From NCBI GenBank assembly GCA_026988155.1, contig JALSLW010000009.1, positions 1 to 64,000 of the forward strand: a stretch of DNA of 64,000 bases, read 5' to 3'. The notes under the pieces were generated by a model, which saw only the letters and a list, made by a program, of their open reading frames with translations, had not been told where the DNA came from and searched no databases. The position numbers and the translations under genes were made by a program. Positions 1 through 6,215 of the stretch are shown one piece after another. Each line of letters begins with the position of its first letter. Position 1 is the stretch's first letter. Source of the DNA: Methylomonas sp. Its GTDB lineage: Bacteria; Pseudomonadota; Gammaproteobacteria; Methylococcales; Methylomonadaceae.

Positions 1-43
1 TCGGGCTGTTCAGCAAAAAGCTATTTGCAATAGCGGAATTCAT
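1..43 (-). CDS. Possible start of the gene in the next integron cassette (partial)
   Basis: Past the attC core the leftward reading strand should enter a second cassette. An ATG at 43-41 opens 14 codons that stay open to the window edge. No convincing ribosome binding site sits at the usual distance, and 14 codons cannot be assigned to a family. It is listed only because its position, about 30 bases after the recombination point, is where cassette genes normally start. Confidence 0.2.
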   Translation of the reverse strand, partial: MNSAIANSFLLNSP

Positions 44-64
44 CTCAAAGGGTAAACCGGGCTT

Positions 65-127
65 GTCCAACAAACGGTTCAGATTGTGGCTCGCTTCGCG
101 ATCACAATCTAACCTTATTCGTTAGCT
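65..127 (-). other. attC: Integron attC recombination site
   Basis: Read on the minus strand the site runs from an R''-type box AGCTAAC (127-121) to an R' box GTTGGAC (71-65), which fits the core consensus GTTRRRY. Between them is a long imperfect palindrome: 76-88 (GGTT, then C80, then AGATTGTG) pairs with 103-114 (CACAATCT then AACC), leaving C80 as a single unpaired extrahelical base, the feature integrases use to choose the strand. The loop (91-101) forms a further small TCGC/GCGA hairpin. Recombination would fall between G71 and T70 of the minus strand. The site begins 31 bases after the stop codon of the last cassette gene, as expected. Confidence 0.88.
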
Positions 128-158
128 GTATTTACCTACATTAACAATATTTTTTTCA

Positions 159-1628
159 TTAGCCTCTTATTAACATCTCAATATATTTATCATCATTGAA
201 TTGCAAAGGGATATATGAACATTTCGTCATTATCAATGGTCCACCCTTTGAATACACTTGGATAGCATGCTCAATAGGTTGATACAAAGAAAGGTGTCGA
301 TACCAAAATGTACTAACGTCTGATGATGAATTGTGCCAATAGTTTGTTAAAGATTCTAACTTTCCAATTATTTCATTTTGCAATATCAATCGTTCATCTT
401 CTGTAATACAATCTAAATAGTAACCTACAACTGCAAAGTCTAGTTCTGAAAAAGCCAAATTAAAAAGACTGTTGTGAGTATCTTCTTCTCCAAAATTCCA
501 TTCAATCCATCGTTTGTACGCAACCTGCCAAAGCAGTTTTTTTCTATCCAAGCTAGCGTGTTTAGAAAAAGTTTCTAAACACTCAGATACAACCAACCGA
601 CTTCCATCAGGAGTAGAGCTAGTTAAAGAAATGGAGTCTATATAAATAGAAATAATTTTTTCATTTGTTGTGATTGCCAACATTTTCCCAAGGGCTTCCT
701 GAATATGAGGGTAACGTAAAGGGTATTTGTTAAAAATTTCCATCCAACTACTAAACCTACCTTCTTCATTACTGACATTTTTAAATATATCTAATAAGTA
801 ACTATTTTCTATTTTATTAAGTGCTTTACGCCCATTTAGATTAGTTAACGAAGTACATACAGCACAAAACTCTACATATTCATTTTTTGTTTTAGTACTT
901 ACATAAAATGAAGTCTCAGTTTTTAGAGTGAACATAAAATGTGTAAGAATAGGGATATCAATGCATTTCTGAAAAACCTTTACAAGAGCATTTTTATCTA
1001 AATGCATTAAGATAAGAAGCATTTGTATATATTTAACTTTTAACAGAGGTCTGGTATTAAAACGTCCCCATAGTTGCTCTATTTCCACCCAGTTTTTATT
1101 CTTTATGGCAGACAGAAACCTTTCCAAGCTTTCTTGCTCATGGATAGGAACATCGTCACCTTCATTAGCTGAAAATTCACTACCAATACAAGATAGCTCT
1201 TCCACTATGTGGTTCGATAGATACTCACTTAAGCTGTTCTCACTTTGAGACAACGATTTCCACAACCTTCCTTCATAATCTATGAAAAATGAAACATTCA
1301 ATATAATATCAAGATTTACTAAGCTCAAGTCACTAGTACTTTTCCAACTGCTCAGTTGAATTATAAGCCAATTAATAGCATGAATAACTTGAAAACACTT
1401 AGGTTGATTGAGTTCAGAAATTTTAATTATTGTATATTGAGAATTATCTAAAAATTGATAATTATCTTTTAGATTATTCCAAAGATCGTATGGATTTTCA
1501 TCATTATTTGATTTTTTTTTATCCTCTAGTATTTCGGTTATTTTAGTGACAATAATAGGTAATCCATCAAACTCCATAGTTGACGATTTCTCTATTAGAT
1601 AACTTATCACTTCATCATAGTTATTCAT
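159..1628 (-). CDS. Cassette gene 2: unrecognised 489-residue protein
   Basis: The product is 489 residues and I do not recognise its family. It has no signal peptide or transmembrane segment. By eye it is mostly helical with many short amphipathic stretches, an acidic middle region (about residues 150-165) and an aromatic C-terminal third. Its ATG overlaps the stop codon of the upstream cassette gene by one base (TAATG), so the two are very likely translationally coupled and act together. The gene is AT-rich, more so than the housekeeping genes in this window, consistent with acquisition. The stop lies 31 bases before the attC. No function is proposed from its own sequence; a role in defence is only a guess from context. 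Confidence 0.85.
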   Translation of the reverse strand: MNNYDEVISYLIEKSSTMEFDGLPIIVTKITEILEDKKKSNNDENPYDLWNNLKDNYQFLDNSQYTIIKISELNQPKCFQVIHAINWLIIQLSSWKSTSDLSLVNLDIILNVSFFIDYEGRLWKSLSQSENSLSEYLSNHIVEELSCIGSEFSANEGDDVPIHEQESLERFLSAIKNKNWVEIEQLWGRFNTRPLLKVKYIQMLLILMHLDKNALVKVFQKCIDIPILTHFMFTLKTETSFYVSTKTKNEYVEFCAVCTSLTNLNGRKALNKIENSYLLDIFKNVSNEEGRFSSWMEIFNKYPLRYPHIQEALGKMLAITTNEKIISIYIDSISLTSSTPDGSRLVVSECLETFSKHASLDRKKLLWQVAYKRWIEWNFGEEDTHNSLFNLAFSELDFAVVGYYLDCITEDERLILQNEIIGKLESLTNYWHNSSSDVSTFWYRHLSLYQPIEHAIQVYSKGGPLIMTKCSYIPLQFNDDKYIEMLIRG

Positions 1629-3208
1629 TAGGACTTACAAATTAAATGTTCAGGCTTATCTAGTTCATTCCATAACTCTAAAAATGAATCAGCTATTAAC
1701 TGTCCATCATCTACTTTTTGTAAGATGTGATGTTGTTTTCCTAGGCTATTAATTGAAGTACCAAGTGACCACGCTAGAGTGCCTTGCTGTGTATCTGGAA
1801 AGATTAAAAAACGATCATGAAAACTCCAGCCTGCATTTCCAATTCGTGCTCGAAACTCAAGATTCACCCCATACCAATTAGAATCAACATCTTGAAGAGC
1901 CGATATTTGGCTATTTAGTTGGGAAGTTTTTCCACTCACTTCACTCTGTGATTCACAAGAGTCAGTAGTATTACTTAAATTTGTTAATGCCTTTAACTGA
2001 GAACCAAAATAAGGACAGTAGAATAACGTTTCAAGTATGTCATTTGCTGACAGATAGGGGTCCCATAGCCAAACACCATTTTCACCATATTGCTCTATTA
2101 ATGCTCGAACATCTAAAATAGCTCTGAGATGTTCCTGTTCTTGTCTTCCTTGTTTTGGCTTATATTGCACAAACTTTCTTTGCTTAGATAGCTGTTCCTT
2201 TTCCTCTCTATATAATCTTTTTTGTATCCAACTGTCTTGGTTAGAGCTTGGTTTCCCAATACTACTATTACTCTTATGTTGAACGGAAATACTTACATAT
2301 TGATTGTTTACATTAAAAACACGAGGCTCAGATTCCACTATTCCCATTCCAAAAGATATAGATTTTACAAATGAGCTTGGTCTAGTTGCAGCTAATATTA
2401 GACGGTTCTCATCGTCCCACACAAGACCTTTATGTAGACCATAATCATAACTCATAGGGATAATGATACTTTCATCAGTTACTTCAAATGAGCCATAACC
2501 ATTAATATTTTTATCATATTCCATTTCACAACTTACACGTAATGGTCGCGGTGTAGCCAGTGGATGCCACACTGCGTCAAACCTTAAATCATTCCCTTCT
2601 TTTGAATGATTAAATCGAGCCTGCATGATGGTAACTGGAATTTGTAAAATAAAATTACCAAGCCTATCAGATACACTTGCTAATGCTATTGGACAATATT
2701 TATGAATCTCATTTGATAGAGCTTGAAGTAAAGGTGGAGAGCCTAATAAAGGAAGTAGCTTTTCTTTATGTGTATCATTCCACTCAATAACGTAAGAGCC
2801 ATTCCAGAAATTGTTTTTAAGAACTTTATTTAAAGATATGTTTTCAAATGAATCAGGAGGAATAAATCTTTTTGGCTGATATACCAGGTTACTAACACTT
2901 TGCTCTTTACCAGAAGCTTTCCATGCCCCTTTTTCTAAATTATTTAGATGTAAAGATATTTTATCCTTATTTAAGGTGTACCTTAAAACTCCAAAGCTCC
3001 AACTGTTTAAATTAGCAACCTTAATTCGCTCTTCACTAATGATTCTAGGTTTAATAAATTTATCGTCATCATTTCTATTTTCAGCAACAATAATTGTAAA
3101 AACATTTACAGTGGATTTATCTGGCAAAGTTGCAAATATTTCTGTCACCTCAACTTTGTCATAAAACCCTAAAACACCATCACATAATAATTTTTCAATA
3201 TCATCCAT
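1628..3208 (-). CDS. Cassette gene 1: 526-residue protein with degenerate PLD-like C-terminus
   Basis: First gene of the cassette, 526 residues, cytosolic by appearance. The N-terminal 330 residues are not recognised. A charged, Lys/Gln-rich linker lies near residues 330-355. The C-terminal part resembles a phospholipase D-type half: WLWDPYLS near 370, then HDRFLIFP with His464, then GTSINSLG at 483-490. In true PLD enzymes the motif is HxKxxxxD followed by GSxN; here Lys is replaced, so catalysis is uncertain. The HDRF...GxSxNxLG pattern occurs in several phage-defence-like proteins. From memory it may belong to the family named after Vibrio VPA1262, which I cannot verify. The gene is coupled to the 489-residue partner. 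Confidence 0.85.
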   Translation of the reverse strand: MDDIEKLLCDGVLGFYDKVEVTEIFATLPDKSTVNVFTIIVAENRNDDDKFIKPRIISEERIKVANLNSWSFGVLRYTLNKDKISLHLNNLEKGAWKASGKEQSVSNLVYQPKRFIPPDSFENISLNKVLKNNFWNGSYVIEWNDTHKEKLLPLLGSPPLLQALSNEIHKYCPIALASVSDRLGNFILQIPVTIMQARFNHSKEGNDLRFDAVWHPLATPRPLRVSCEMEYDKNINGYGSFEVTDESIIIPMSYDYGLHKGLVWDDENRLILAATRPSSFVKSISFGMGIVESEPRVFNVNNQYVSISVQHKSNSSIGKPSSNQDSWIQKRLYREEKEQLSKQRKFVQYKPKQGRQEQEHLRAILDVRALIEQYGENGVWLWDPYLSANDILETLFYCPYFGSQLKALTNLSNTTDSCESQSEVSGKTSQLNSQISALQDVDSNWYGVNLEFRARIGNAGWSFHDRFLIFPDTQQGTLAWSLGTSINSLGKQHHILQKVDDGQLIADSFLELWNELDKPEHLICKS

Positions 3209-3252
3209 TATATTTTTCTTAGTACTTCAAAGTGAAGATTCGGTTTCTTTAC

Positions 3253-3259
3253 AGCTAAC
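3253..3259 (-). other. attI: attI/cassette junction core (GTTAGCT)
   Basis: On the minus strand this reads GTTAGCT, matching the recombination core GTTRRRY except for one position, and is the boundary between the integrase-side attI region and the first cassette. It lies 45 bases before the first cassette gene and 131 bases from the integrase start codon. The same ten bases (GTTAGCTGTA) occur in opposite orientation at 121-130 within the attC, as expected for a cassette. Confidence 0.75.
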
Positions 3260-3389
3260 AAGTTATTGTCTAGATCAGGTTATCTTATACGCCAATTCAT
3301 GTAATTTGGCAAGAAATGGCATTTATACTTGTAATTCCTTTCTGGTTAACATACATTATTAAATAATAACCAGATCCGATTAACTCGCA
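3260..3389 (+). promoter_or_regulatory. attI region and divergent intI promoter
   Basis: The 130 bases between the cassette junction and intI hold two clear dyads: GCCAATT/AATTTGGC at 3291-3310 and CTGGTTA/TAACCAG at 3342-3373 with ATTATTAAATAAT inside it. They may be integrase binding sites of attI or operator sites for intI. I see no canonical LexA box (CTG-N10-CAG), so SOS control as in Vibrio and class 1 integrons is not supported. No strong Shine-Dalgarno precedes the intI ATG. Confidence 0.45.
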
Positions 3390-4817
3390 ATGCTTAAACT
3401 TCCCATAACTTTAGTTCATCAATTCGACAATCTTTTGCTTAATAAATCTCTATCTGACAAAGACAGGGCTTTGTTCAAAAAATGGCTGCACTTTTATTGG
3501 GACTTTTGCCATAAGTACCAGCATGATGTTTTTCATGTAAACAGTTTGCCTTTGTTTATTCAAAAACTACAGGATAAAAGACAATCTGTACAACAACAAA
3601 ATCAGGCTAAACAGGCTGTTTCTATTTTCTATGAATTACGCTCTTCCTCTAAGCAACCATTGACAAGAAATAATCGTTTTTCTAATCAGCCTGAGAAAAA
3701 CGTTATCCCTGACAAAATCGCTTCAAGTCATGGTAACTATGTTATTGATCAAAAACCTTTGGTGCAAACCGCTGTACAGCAAAGTTCTTCTGATCTGTCC
3801 AAGTCCATTCCATTTGGCGTTAATGATTCATTGACAGAAAATGGATCCAGCTGGGTGTTTATTTTTGATCAGTTGGTTAATGAAATTAAAATTCGCCATT
3901 ATTCGCCTAAGACTCTTAAAGCTTATCGGGGATATATTCGCCAGTTACAAACATTTACCAAAAGTAAAGATTACCAAAAGCTTACGCAACAGGATGTGGT
4001 CGATTTTTTAACTTTTCTGGCCGTTGAAAAACAAGTTTCTGCTTCTAGTCAAAACCTGGCGTTTAATGCATTGCTGTTTTTGTTTAAGCATGTGCTTAAA
4101 AAGGAGTTTGGTGAAATCAAAGGCGTTACACGGGCAAAACGCAAGCCCTATATCCCTGTGGTGTTATCTAGGGATGAGATTGATCTTATTTTTGATCATT
4201 TATACGATCCGGTCAATTTAGTTGCTAAATTACTCTATGGCTGTGGATTACGGCTCTTTGAATGTCTAAAGCTACGAGTCCAGGATTTTAATTTTGATGC
4301 GGGTATTGTTACTATTCATGATGGCAAGGGTAAAAAAGATAGAACGGTTCCGATACCACAAAGTATTGTTCCAGAATTACAAAAGCAGTTAGATCATGTG
4401 GCGAACGTTCATAAAGCTGATTTAAAAGCTAACTTCTCAGGTACTTTTTTGCCAGACCAATTAGATCGCAAGTATAAGAATGCGGCTAAAGAATTTATTT
4501 GGCAGTGGTTTTTTCCTGCCCATTCGTTGACTTTATTATCAGGAACGAAAGAATATAGACGTTATCATGTTCATGAATCAGTCGTACAAAAAGCCATGAA
4601 ACAGGCTGCAAATGATGCCCGAATTACTAAACGAGCAACGTCACATACCCTTAGACATTCATTTGCCAGTCATTTATTGCAAGCCAATTATGATATCAGG
4701 ACAATTCAAGAACTTTTAGGCCATAGTGATGTTAGAACGACTATGATTTACACCCATACTGTGCAAAGTAGAACACTTAAACAATCTAAGAGTCCGCTGG
4801 ACTTTGATCAGGATTGA
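3390..4817 (+). CDS. intI: Integron integrase IntI with N-terminal extension
   Basis: Tyrosine recombinase that inserts and excises gene cassettes at attI and attC. The catalytic set is visible: Arg288 (GCGLRLFE), His419 and Arg422 (HTLRH), His445 (LLGHSDV) and Tyr454 (MIYTHT). The block between about residues 355 and 395 (LPDQLDRKY ... WQWFFPA) is the extra helix insertion that separates IntI from XerC/D. IntI proteins are usually 320-340 residues; this one is 475 because of about 145 extra N-terminal residues. Residues about 1-85 are helical and resemble a second SAM-like core-binding domain, followed by a Ser/Gln-rich linker. It is divergent from the cassette, the normal integron layout. 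The reading frame is intact, so the integron may be active. Confidence 0.93.
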   Translation: MLKLPITLVHQFDNLLLNKSLSDKDRALFKKWLHFYWDFCHKYQHDVFHVNSLPLFIQKLQDKRQSVQQQNQAKQAVSIFYELRSSSKQPLTRNNRFSNQPEKNVIPDKIASSHGNYVIDQKPLVQTAVQQSSSDLSKSIPFGVNDSLTENGSSWVFIFDQLVNEIKIRHYSPKTLKAYRGYIRQLQTFTKSKDYQKLTQQDVVDFLTFLAVEKQVSASSQNLAFNALLFLFKHVLKKEFGEIKGVTRAKRKPYIPVVLSRDEIDLIFDHLYDPVNLVAKLLYGCGLRLFECLKLRVQDFNFDAGIVTIHDGKGKKDRTVPIPQSIVPELQKQLDHVANVHKADLKANFSGTFLPDQLDRKYKNAAKEFIWQWFFPAHSLTLLSGTKEYRRYHVHESVVQKAMKQAANDARITKRATSHTLRHSFASHLLQANYDIRTIQELLGHSDVRTTMIYTHTVQSRTLKQSKSPLDFDQD

Positions 4818-4900
4818 TAGATGGGATCATTAAGCAGCTATGCATAATTATTCTAGCAAAATCAAAAGTTATAATACCCTGCACTGCTTACTTTATACTT

Positions 4901-4926
4901 GCTGGGTCTGGTTTATTTACCCCAGC
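4901..4926 (+). terminator. Weak hairpin after intI
   Basis: GCTGGG (4901-4906) pairs with CCCAGC (4921-4926) across a 14-base loop, about 85 bases after the intI stop. Only three T residues follow, so termination is doubtful. Confidence 0.3.
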
Positions 4927-4969
4927 TTTAAAAGTACAATAATATGCAAAAGGGGTAAAAATCCGGCAG

Positions 4970-4999
4970 GCTGGGGTGAGGCGTTAGCTCAACCCCAGC
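4970..4999. repeat. REP-like palindrome
   Basis: GCTGGGGTGAG pairs with GCTCAACCCCAGC (one bulged base) around the loop GCGTTA. The GGGGT...ACCCC hairpin with a GTTAGC/GCTAAC loop looks like the short palindromes scattered by REP/RAYT-type systems. It lies between the 3' ends of intI and the beta-propeller gene, where it could also slow converging transcription. Confidence 0.55.
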
Positions 5000-5031
5000 A
5001 AAGTCAATATAGCAGGAAATATTGGGACATG

Positions 5032-5988
5032 CTATGGTTTAACCACAACACCCCAAGGATAGCGCCCAACAGCAACCGACTTAACCACCCTCATCTCTTC
5101 TAGATCAATAATGGAAATATCATTGCTTACTCCGTTAGTGGTGAATACCTTTTTTTGATCAGCTGAAAAAGCCAAATTCCAGACTCGCCGCCCTACTAAA
5201 AAATACTTCTCCACTTCTAGCGTTTTTGCGTTGATTAAGGCAACTCTATTTGCGGGCCCTAATGCCACCAAAGCCCACTGTCTGTTATTATCTATAATGA
5301 CACCGACCGGCTGTATCTTGTCATTAGTTACTCCCGTGACATTAAATTTAATGGACTTTATTTTTTTTCGGCTAGCAGCATCCAATACCGTTACTGTTCC
5401 GCCCAGTTCAGATGTTACCCATAATTGCTGACTGTCAGCAGTAAAACTCAACCCTCTTGGGCGGGTGTCAACTAAGGTATTGTCTTCAATAGTTAAGGTC
5501 TGCTGATTTATCCAGTGCACCATATTGTTTGCTTCTGATCCGCTGACCACCCATTTTTCATCAGGGCTTACCGTAATAGGCTCAGGTTCGGCTCCCACCG
5601 CAATCGTTTTAATTGCTTTACCCTGTTTAATATCAACGACTGTTACCAAACTGTCATCTTCATTAGAAACATAAAGGCGGTCTCCTGAAGGATTCATTGC
5701 GAAGGTTTCAGGATCTTCCCCAGAAGACAGGGTGCCGACTGGTTTTAGCGTATTAATATCAATTACCTGAATGGTATCATCGTCACTGGTTGCAATATAT
5801 AGCTGCTTTTGATCTTTGCTCAGTACAATGCCGCGCGGACGCAGACCTAGCGATACCGTTTTTATTAATTTACCTGCAACCGGGTCAACTACGGCCAGCG
5901 CATTATCCTTTTCTAACGTTACAAAGATAGTTTCAGAATAGGCTGTAAAAGTTATCAGCCATAAGGCTGTGCTTAATAAATATTTCAT
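5032..5988 (-). CDS. Periplasmic YVTN beta-propeller protein, PQQ-catabolism associated
   Basis: The 318-residue product begins with a Sec signal peptide (residues 1-18, ending TAYS) and then consists of repeating blades with the patterns LYVSNEDD, VVDI and PEPITVSPD typical of the YVTN/PQQ beta-propeller fold. It matches the family described as PQQ-dependent catabolism-associated beta-propeller, normally found with PQQ alcohol dehydrogenase regulators and an ABC transporter in methylotrophs and pseudomonads. Its precise role is unknown; it is probably a periplasmic binding or scaffold protein. It is divergent from the sensor kinase next door and shares its upstream region, supporting a common pathway. 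No PQQ enzyme is in the window. Confidence 0.85.
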   Translation of the reverse strand: MKYLLSTALWLITFTAYSETIFVTLEKDNALAVVDPVAGKLIKTVSLGLRPRGIVLSKDQKQLYIATSDDDTIQVIDINTLKPVGTLSSGEDPETFAMNPSGDRLYVSNEDDSLVTVVDIKQGKAIKTIAVGAEPEPITVSPDEKWVVSGSEANNMVHWINQQTLTIEDNTLVDTRPRGLSFTADSQQLWVTSELGGTVTVLDAASRKKIKSIKFNVTGVTNDKIQPVGVIIDNNRQWALVALGPANRVALINAKTLEVEKYFLVGRRVWNLAFSADQKKVFTTNGVSNDISIIDLEEMRVVKSVAVGRYPWGVVVKP

Positions 5989-6215
5989 AAAAATCAGACT
6001 AAAAACAAAGGATCATGCGGATAAATAAATAAAAAATATATAGGAAAAATTCCTGAACTTATACTAAGACAGGCTGTACGCACCTTGCATTCTCTGATAA
6101 ATACCTACTCTATAAGGGCCGTTAGCAAGAAGCATTAAAGCCAAATCTATCATTACTCTGCCGGAAACAAGAATAAACTGTATAAATAAAATTTTGTCAG
6201 TATGATAGAACCCTT

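Follow-up and report, generated by a model that had tools for sequence, protein, structure and literature searches.

A coupled two-gene module captured by an integron in a probable Methylococcales methanotroph, in a cassette whose attC was most likely split by an IS91-family transposon

The window, the whole 64,000-nucleotide stretch analysed here, begins with base 1 of contig C9 from a genome of 3.40 Mb in 107 contigs, most likely that of a Methylococcales methanotroph. Next to an integron integrase gene it carries two overlapping genes, A and B, which form a mobile chromosomal or plasmid module captured by the integron. Very probably, the integron took up the A/B operon as its first cassette, and a multicopy IS91-family transposon later inserted itself into the R'' box of that cassette's attC. 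The chances that the module serves in defence against phages or plasmids are about even. For the complete explanation, comprising the capture, the IS91-family hit and an A/B defence complex, we give a probability of roughly 0.5. The features are:

1-120, + strand: IS91-family transposon, right (oriIS-like) end, truncated where the contig begins, with a hairpin at ~76-110 (found at 8 contig ends; 3' of IS91 transposases in relatives)
121-124, + strand: GTTA, transposon target, inside the remaining R'' box
121-127, - strand: AGCTAAC, probable R'' box left over from the cassette's own attC (complementary to TTAGCT at the cassette start)
121-3258, - strand: surviving part of the cassette, from the attI crossover to R'' (attI comparison)
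159-1628, - strand: gene B, 489-aa alpha-solenoid protein (open reading frame; structure model)
1628-3208, - strand: gene A, 526-aa VPA1262-family protein (NF040700, 304 bits; model pLDDT 93)
1631-2176, - strand: PLD-superfamily domain of gene A, residues 345-526 (structural matches, conservation)
1811-1819, - strand: HDR motif of gene A, residues 464-466 (conservation)
3259-3350, - strand: attI site (recurs twice elsewhere in the genome and three times in genus-mates, each time with different sequence after it)
3390-4817, + strand: intI, integron integrase, 475 aa (TIGR02249, Phage_integrase)

The gene layout given by the sequence-only reading held: two genes of 526 and 489 amino acids, both on the minus strand, overlap at a TAATG junction. 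With 3.1 kb for genes A and B, the cargo is indeed unusually large. An Rfam search of window positions 1-6000 gave no match.

The start of the cassette was fixed by comparing attI copies. The integrase at 3390-4817 (+) matched TIGR02249 with 384 bits; it has ~155 extra N-terminal amino acids without a Pfam match. Within this genome the stretch 3254-3400 recurred on contigs C88 and C102, and three genus-mates had it too. On the minus strand, each of the six attI copies, half of them from this genome and half from genus-mates, had ...AACAATAACTTG, then TTA, two of them with small differences. They were near-identical up to ...CTTG|TTA and then each entered a different sequence, the divergence lying exactly at G|TT. 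This looks like attI with different first cassettes, and it sets the cassette boundary at G3259|T3258. The earlier placement of the cassette start, G3259|TTAGCT, was thereby confirmed, and the cassette begins at the attI crossover.

The two other attI copies of this genome, on C88 (3632-3727 of locus L023) and C102 (9486-9631 of locus L022), have no integrase gene. The C88 copy is followed by two attCs of the lineage type (541-643 and 3045-3109 of L023), while the C102 copy carries the first bases of intI and is followed by a 255-aa orphan gene. A second, canonical integron integrase was found at C1:73396-74346 (434 bits). An attC of 99 bp lies 1.3 kb from it, and 302-aa and 255-aa genes of no assigned family are its neighbours.

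The other end of the cassette had been misread. The cassette had been called intact (71-3258), with its own attC at 65-127, and this rival has points in its favour: the 63-bp hairpin folds well (z -4.9), it has one extra-helical base and R-box-like ends (RYYYAAC/GTTRRRY), and AGCTAAC is complementary to the cassette start. However, the hairpin and its adjoining bases were found at 8 contig ends of the genome, with 121-127 bp in common. The copies diverge right after CTTATTC|GTTA (7 of 8) or GGTA (1 of 8), so that a nearly constant target tetramer adjoins the end. At three contig ends, open frames of 627 aa (C102 start), 385 aa (C100 end) and 300 aa (C12 start) are broken by it; these are probably broken genes. 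The same end was present in 25 of the 61 genomes in the relatives set, the window's own genome counted. In all five relatives' contigs that had both (G302:C200, G310:C13, G356:C1, G357:C78 and G338:C194), it lay 200-370 bp downstream of an IS91 transposase, on the same strand. Pfam searches found Zn_Tnp_IS91 and Y2_Tnp in G356 and G357, and in the window's genome contig C93 ends within an IS91-type transposase. The contig-end copies, the broken frames and the transposase association together identify 1-120 as the terminal hairpin end of a multicopy IS91-family transposon.

This element resembles known IS91-family transposons in that its end follows Y2/IS91 transposases in relatives and its insertions adjoin a GTT-containing tetramer. 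It differs in its target, GTTA here versus the GTTC/GAAC given for IS91 (PMC7758954), and in a tyrosine recombinase gene upstream of the transposase in G356, also seen on C93.

Scoring the 63-base site against an attC covariance model, the check that had been proposed for it, went against it as well. The model was built from 18 sites of the lineage, whose attCs are ~100 bp long, and gave 68, 55 and 53 bits for three held-out true attCs. Positions 65-127 scored 6.5 bits (+), with a partial 5.7 bits for 107-127 (-), like chance hits nearby; 6.5 bits is chance level in 400 bp. Since a lineage-specific model could underscore a foreign attC, the IS91 evidence decides here, and not the model score. 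By the usual rule, the side of the extra-helical base sets the orientation of an attC. In 65-127 it is the left arm of the plus strand that holds this base, so an attC there would have the opposite orientation and be part of something to the left of the contig end. The paired stem with one extra-helical base is thus real, but the earlier choice of the minus strand misfits the arm of that base. Overall, an attC at 65-127 belonging to this cassette is extremely improbable. Scarcely more credible is the reading that the hairpin is a genuine attC belonging to a mobile cassette, which IntI would have placed at many GTT sites of the genome. The G|TT junctions in 7 of 8 copies and the attC-like left-arm extra base on the plus strand would agree with it; the element's association with IS91 transposases, at much the same spacing in different genera and families, and the missing match to the lineage attC model, would not.

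The real attC of the cassette was most likely split by the IS91-family transposon at R''. The second integron on C1 and the C88 copy both have attC hairpins of ~100 bp (-57 and -52 kcal/mol with RNA parameters), and further genuine examples were found in relatives. Lineage attCs begin NNCTAACAA or NNATAACAA, and the R'' box GGCTAAC on C88 is complementary to the TTAGCC start after the attI copy there. In the window, AGCTAAC (121-127, -) stands in the corresponding relation to the cassette start, abuts the IS end and lies 31 bp past the gene B stop, after the last gene. Together with the cassette start it extends to a 10-bp inverted repeat, and the six matches beyond the GTTA target would occur by chance in ~1 of 4096 cases. 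That this box abuts the IS end and complements the start points to a real attC split by the transposon. The cassette thus has no complete attC of its own: the site is interrupted at R'', and the remainder lies beyond the contig end. A search of the genome for the missing half returned only the C1 and C88 attCs and one chance-level match on C83. IntI could probably no longer excise the cassette on that side.

An IS91 end with RYYYAAC/GTTRRRY-like boxes and an extra-helical base, as at 65-127, can pass for an attC. The Methylococcales element inserts adjoining GTTA, the core of attC R boxes. Its end may be mistaken for an attC, and searches for attCs in Methylococcales could return false cassettes.

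Beyond this integron, gene A loci were collected from scans of genomes and viral contigs (85 loci) and from plasmid records (8); a few of these loci duplicate a single genome, and A or B is broken in a few copies. Gene B lay directly downstream of A, on the same strand and usually overlapping, in 89 of 90 loci with room for it, the two distant VPA1262-type loci and three loci whose sequence ends directly after A being left out of the count. In Bradyrhizobium, an IS630 was inserted between A and B. The gene A tree had 11 phylum-level labels and 12 label changes, compared with a minimum of 10; labels of single bins are soft, as bins can hold foreign contigs. The window protein grouped with a Flavobacteriaceae bin and Crenothrix, and within the relatives set of 61 genomes gene A was found in two, the window genome and Crenothrix D3. 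At none of the other A/B loci did the flanking DNA examined contain an integron integrase or a convincing attC. Because the pair is widespread and the other loci lack an integron integrase, it is a chromosomal or plasmid module that was captured here. The tight coupling stood. Wide spread outside integrons was the other outcome that the sequence-only reading had named as refuting it, and it did occur; it is no evidence against a defence role.

Gene A belongs to NCBIfam family NF040700 (VPA1262), as revealed by a match of 304 bits (E 1e-90, 455 residues; curated cut-off 80 bits). The name-giving VPA1262 is cargo of the mobile genomic island VPaI-6 of Vibrio parahaemolyticus (PMC1464126), a likeness to the mobile setting found here. 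Literature naming VPA1262 held nothing on function. Other family members (Klebsiella plasmid pML9ba2 and G279) are ~18-22% identical to gene A and are followed by other genes, not by B.

The structure model of gene A (pLDDT 93) has a beta-rich N-terminal part with an Ig/Fn3-like beta-sandwich and, at residues 345-526, a PLD-superfamily domain. This domain matched NucT, Nuc, SauUSI and Zucchini with Z 10-12 over 130-163 residues, and FAM83A/B and TrmB were also among the best structural matches. The nuclease-like fold claimed earlier for the module is therefore there, as a PLD fold in the gene A product. PDB sequence profiles showed no relative of gene A. The motif FHDRF(L/I)(I/L)F was present in 73 of 73 homologues, and D383, S485, N487 and H493 were kept in 72-73 of them. 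As in PLD nucleases (Nuc, NucT, Zucchini; the restriction enzymes SauUSI and NgoAVII), a G-x-S-x-N follows the His motif. In contrast to these enzymes, gene A has HDR in place of HxK: the HKD lysine is arginine in 73/73 and the aspartate in its usual place is P in 72/73, so the catalytic HxKxxxxD motif is absent. With these two residues changed, the domain may bind instead of cut; catalysis is possible. Gene A also differs from these enzymes in having a solenoid partner and no helicase or methylase partner.

Gene B was modelled as helices only, in an alpha-solenoid-like arrangement (pLDDT 93), and it evolves fast. Among the listed Foldseek and VIA-align matches, its structural hits were generic HEAT/ARM-like, with Z of 8.0 or less. 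These, like the generic Ig/Fn3-like hits of the gene A N-terminus, were left out of functional inference. PDB sequence profiles gave only chance-level matches for gene B. A match to Pfam RPAP3_C was rejected, being below the cut-off and absent in relatives.

Defence genes were found near several copies of the pair, in a sample of loci surveyed without a background rate. In R. etli the pair sits beside a CBASS cyclase and S-4TM effector; Agrobacterium has two restriction endonucleases nearby, Aliarcobacter HsdS/DUF4297/RT, and Gluconobacter a type II antitoxin. The neighbours in Rhizobium R634 include EruA, an antiphage NACHT protein (869 bits, which is under the model cut-off of 1000), and the Flavobacteriaceae contig gave a weak EruA match. 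Some copies adjoin core genes, e.g. metH and oxaloacetate decarboxylase. When 150 flanking genes were scanned with PADLOC and Pfam, no single defence family dominated, and the picture was too diffuse to prove enrichment.

Neither gene is named as defence in PADLOC or NCBIfam, and the two do not both match models of a catalogued anti-phage system. PADLOC returned a weak match of gene A to PDC-S05, a candidate single-gene defence system, and none for the window's gene B. Of the 73 homologues, 22 show the PDC-S05 match, which covers the His-motif region and reaches E 1e-5 at best; the window's gene A matches only the profile end (251-297 of 306), and PDC-S05 has no partner gene B. No fitting literature was found on a two-gene PLD and HEAT defence system.

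The obligate, patchy and mobile nature of this two-protein module, together with its PLD-fold part, makes defence the best single reading. The operon would be expressed from the integron promoter adjoining attI. Overlap and co-occurrence suggest that the products of A and B form a complex, in which solenoid B may bind a trigger derived from a phage or element, or hold A off. The PLD-fold domain of A, with its invariant H-D-R...S-x-N...H set, would be the effector; it would cut or bind a phosphodiester substrate, most likely nucleic acid, and thereby give protection against phages or plasmids. That this domain carries out a nuclease step is less likely than not. We put an undescribed two-gene anti-phage system across many phyla, with an H-D-R variant of PLD gated by an alpha-solenoid partner, at slightly less than even odds.

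Two other functions were weighed against defence. In one, A/B would be a sensor or scaffold in regulation or nucleic-acid handling, and its PLD-like domain would bind without catalysis, like that of FAM83 or TrmB-type proteins; HxR for HxK, the lost HKD aspartate and the FAM83A/B and TrmB matches speak for it. We consider this unlikely, as across 73 proteins H, D, R, S, N and H vary little or not at all, which is more than binding alone usually needs, and a housekeeping role fits poorly with the mobile contexts and patchy spread. Somewhat less likely still is a toxin-antitoxin or addiction-like module, kept for stability, in which A is toxic and B restrains it. Integrons often carry toxin-antitoxin cassettes, the pair is obligate, overlapping and found on plasmids and in an integron, and the invariant polar set in A suggests activity. 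Yet both proteins, at ~500 aa, are large for a toxin-antitoxin pair, the effector-like gene precedes its partner, and defence systems are among the neighbours.

Defence thus remains the preferred function. The earlier proposal of an undescribed defence candidate is upheld as plausible by the patchy, mobile distribution, the PLD fold and the defence genes nearby; we judge A/B a probable undescribed defence module, and the gene A family already has a name (VPA1262, NCBIfam). The coupled pair occurs in many distant bacteria, on plasmids, on viral contigs and here in an integron, often near defence genes, and no described function was found for it.

Two observations were made at other loci. A second, distant VPA1262 subfamily occurs in Klebsiella and on a gammaproteobacterial chromosome; on the Klebsiella plasmid, 213-aa and 639-aa genes lie downstream, not B. 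In one Vibrio, a tyrosine-recombinase-like protein and two large proteins of no assigned family are encoded in one operon upstream of the pair (859-5974 of locus L057), resembling a mobile recombinase trio.
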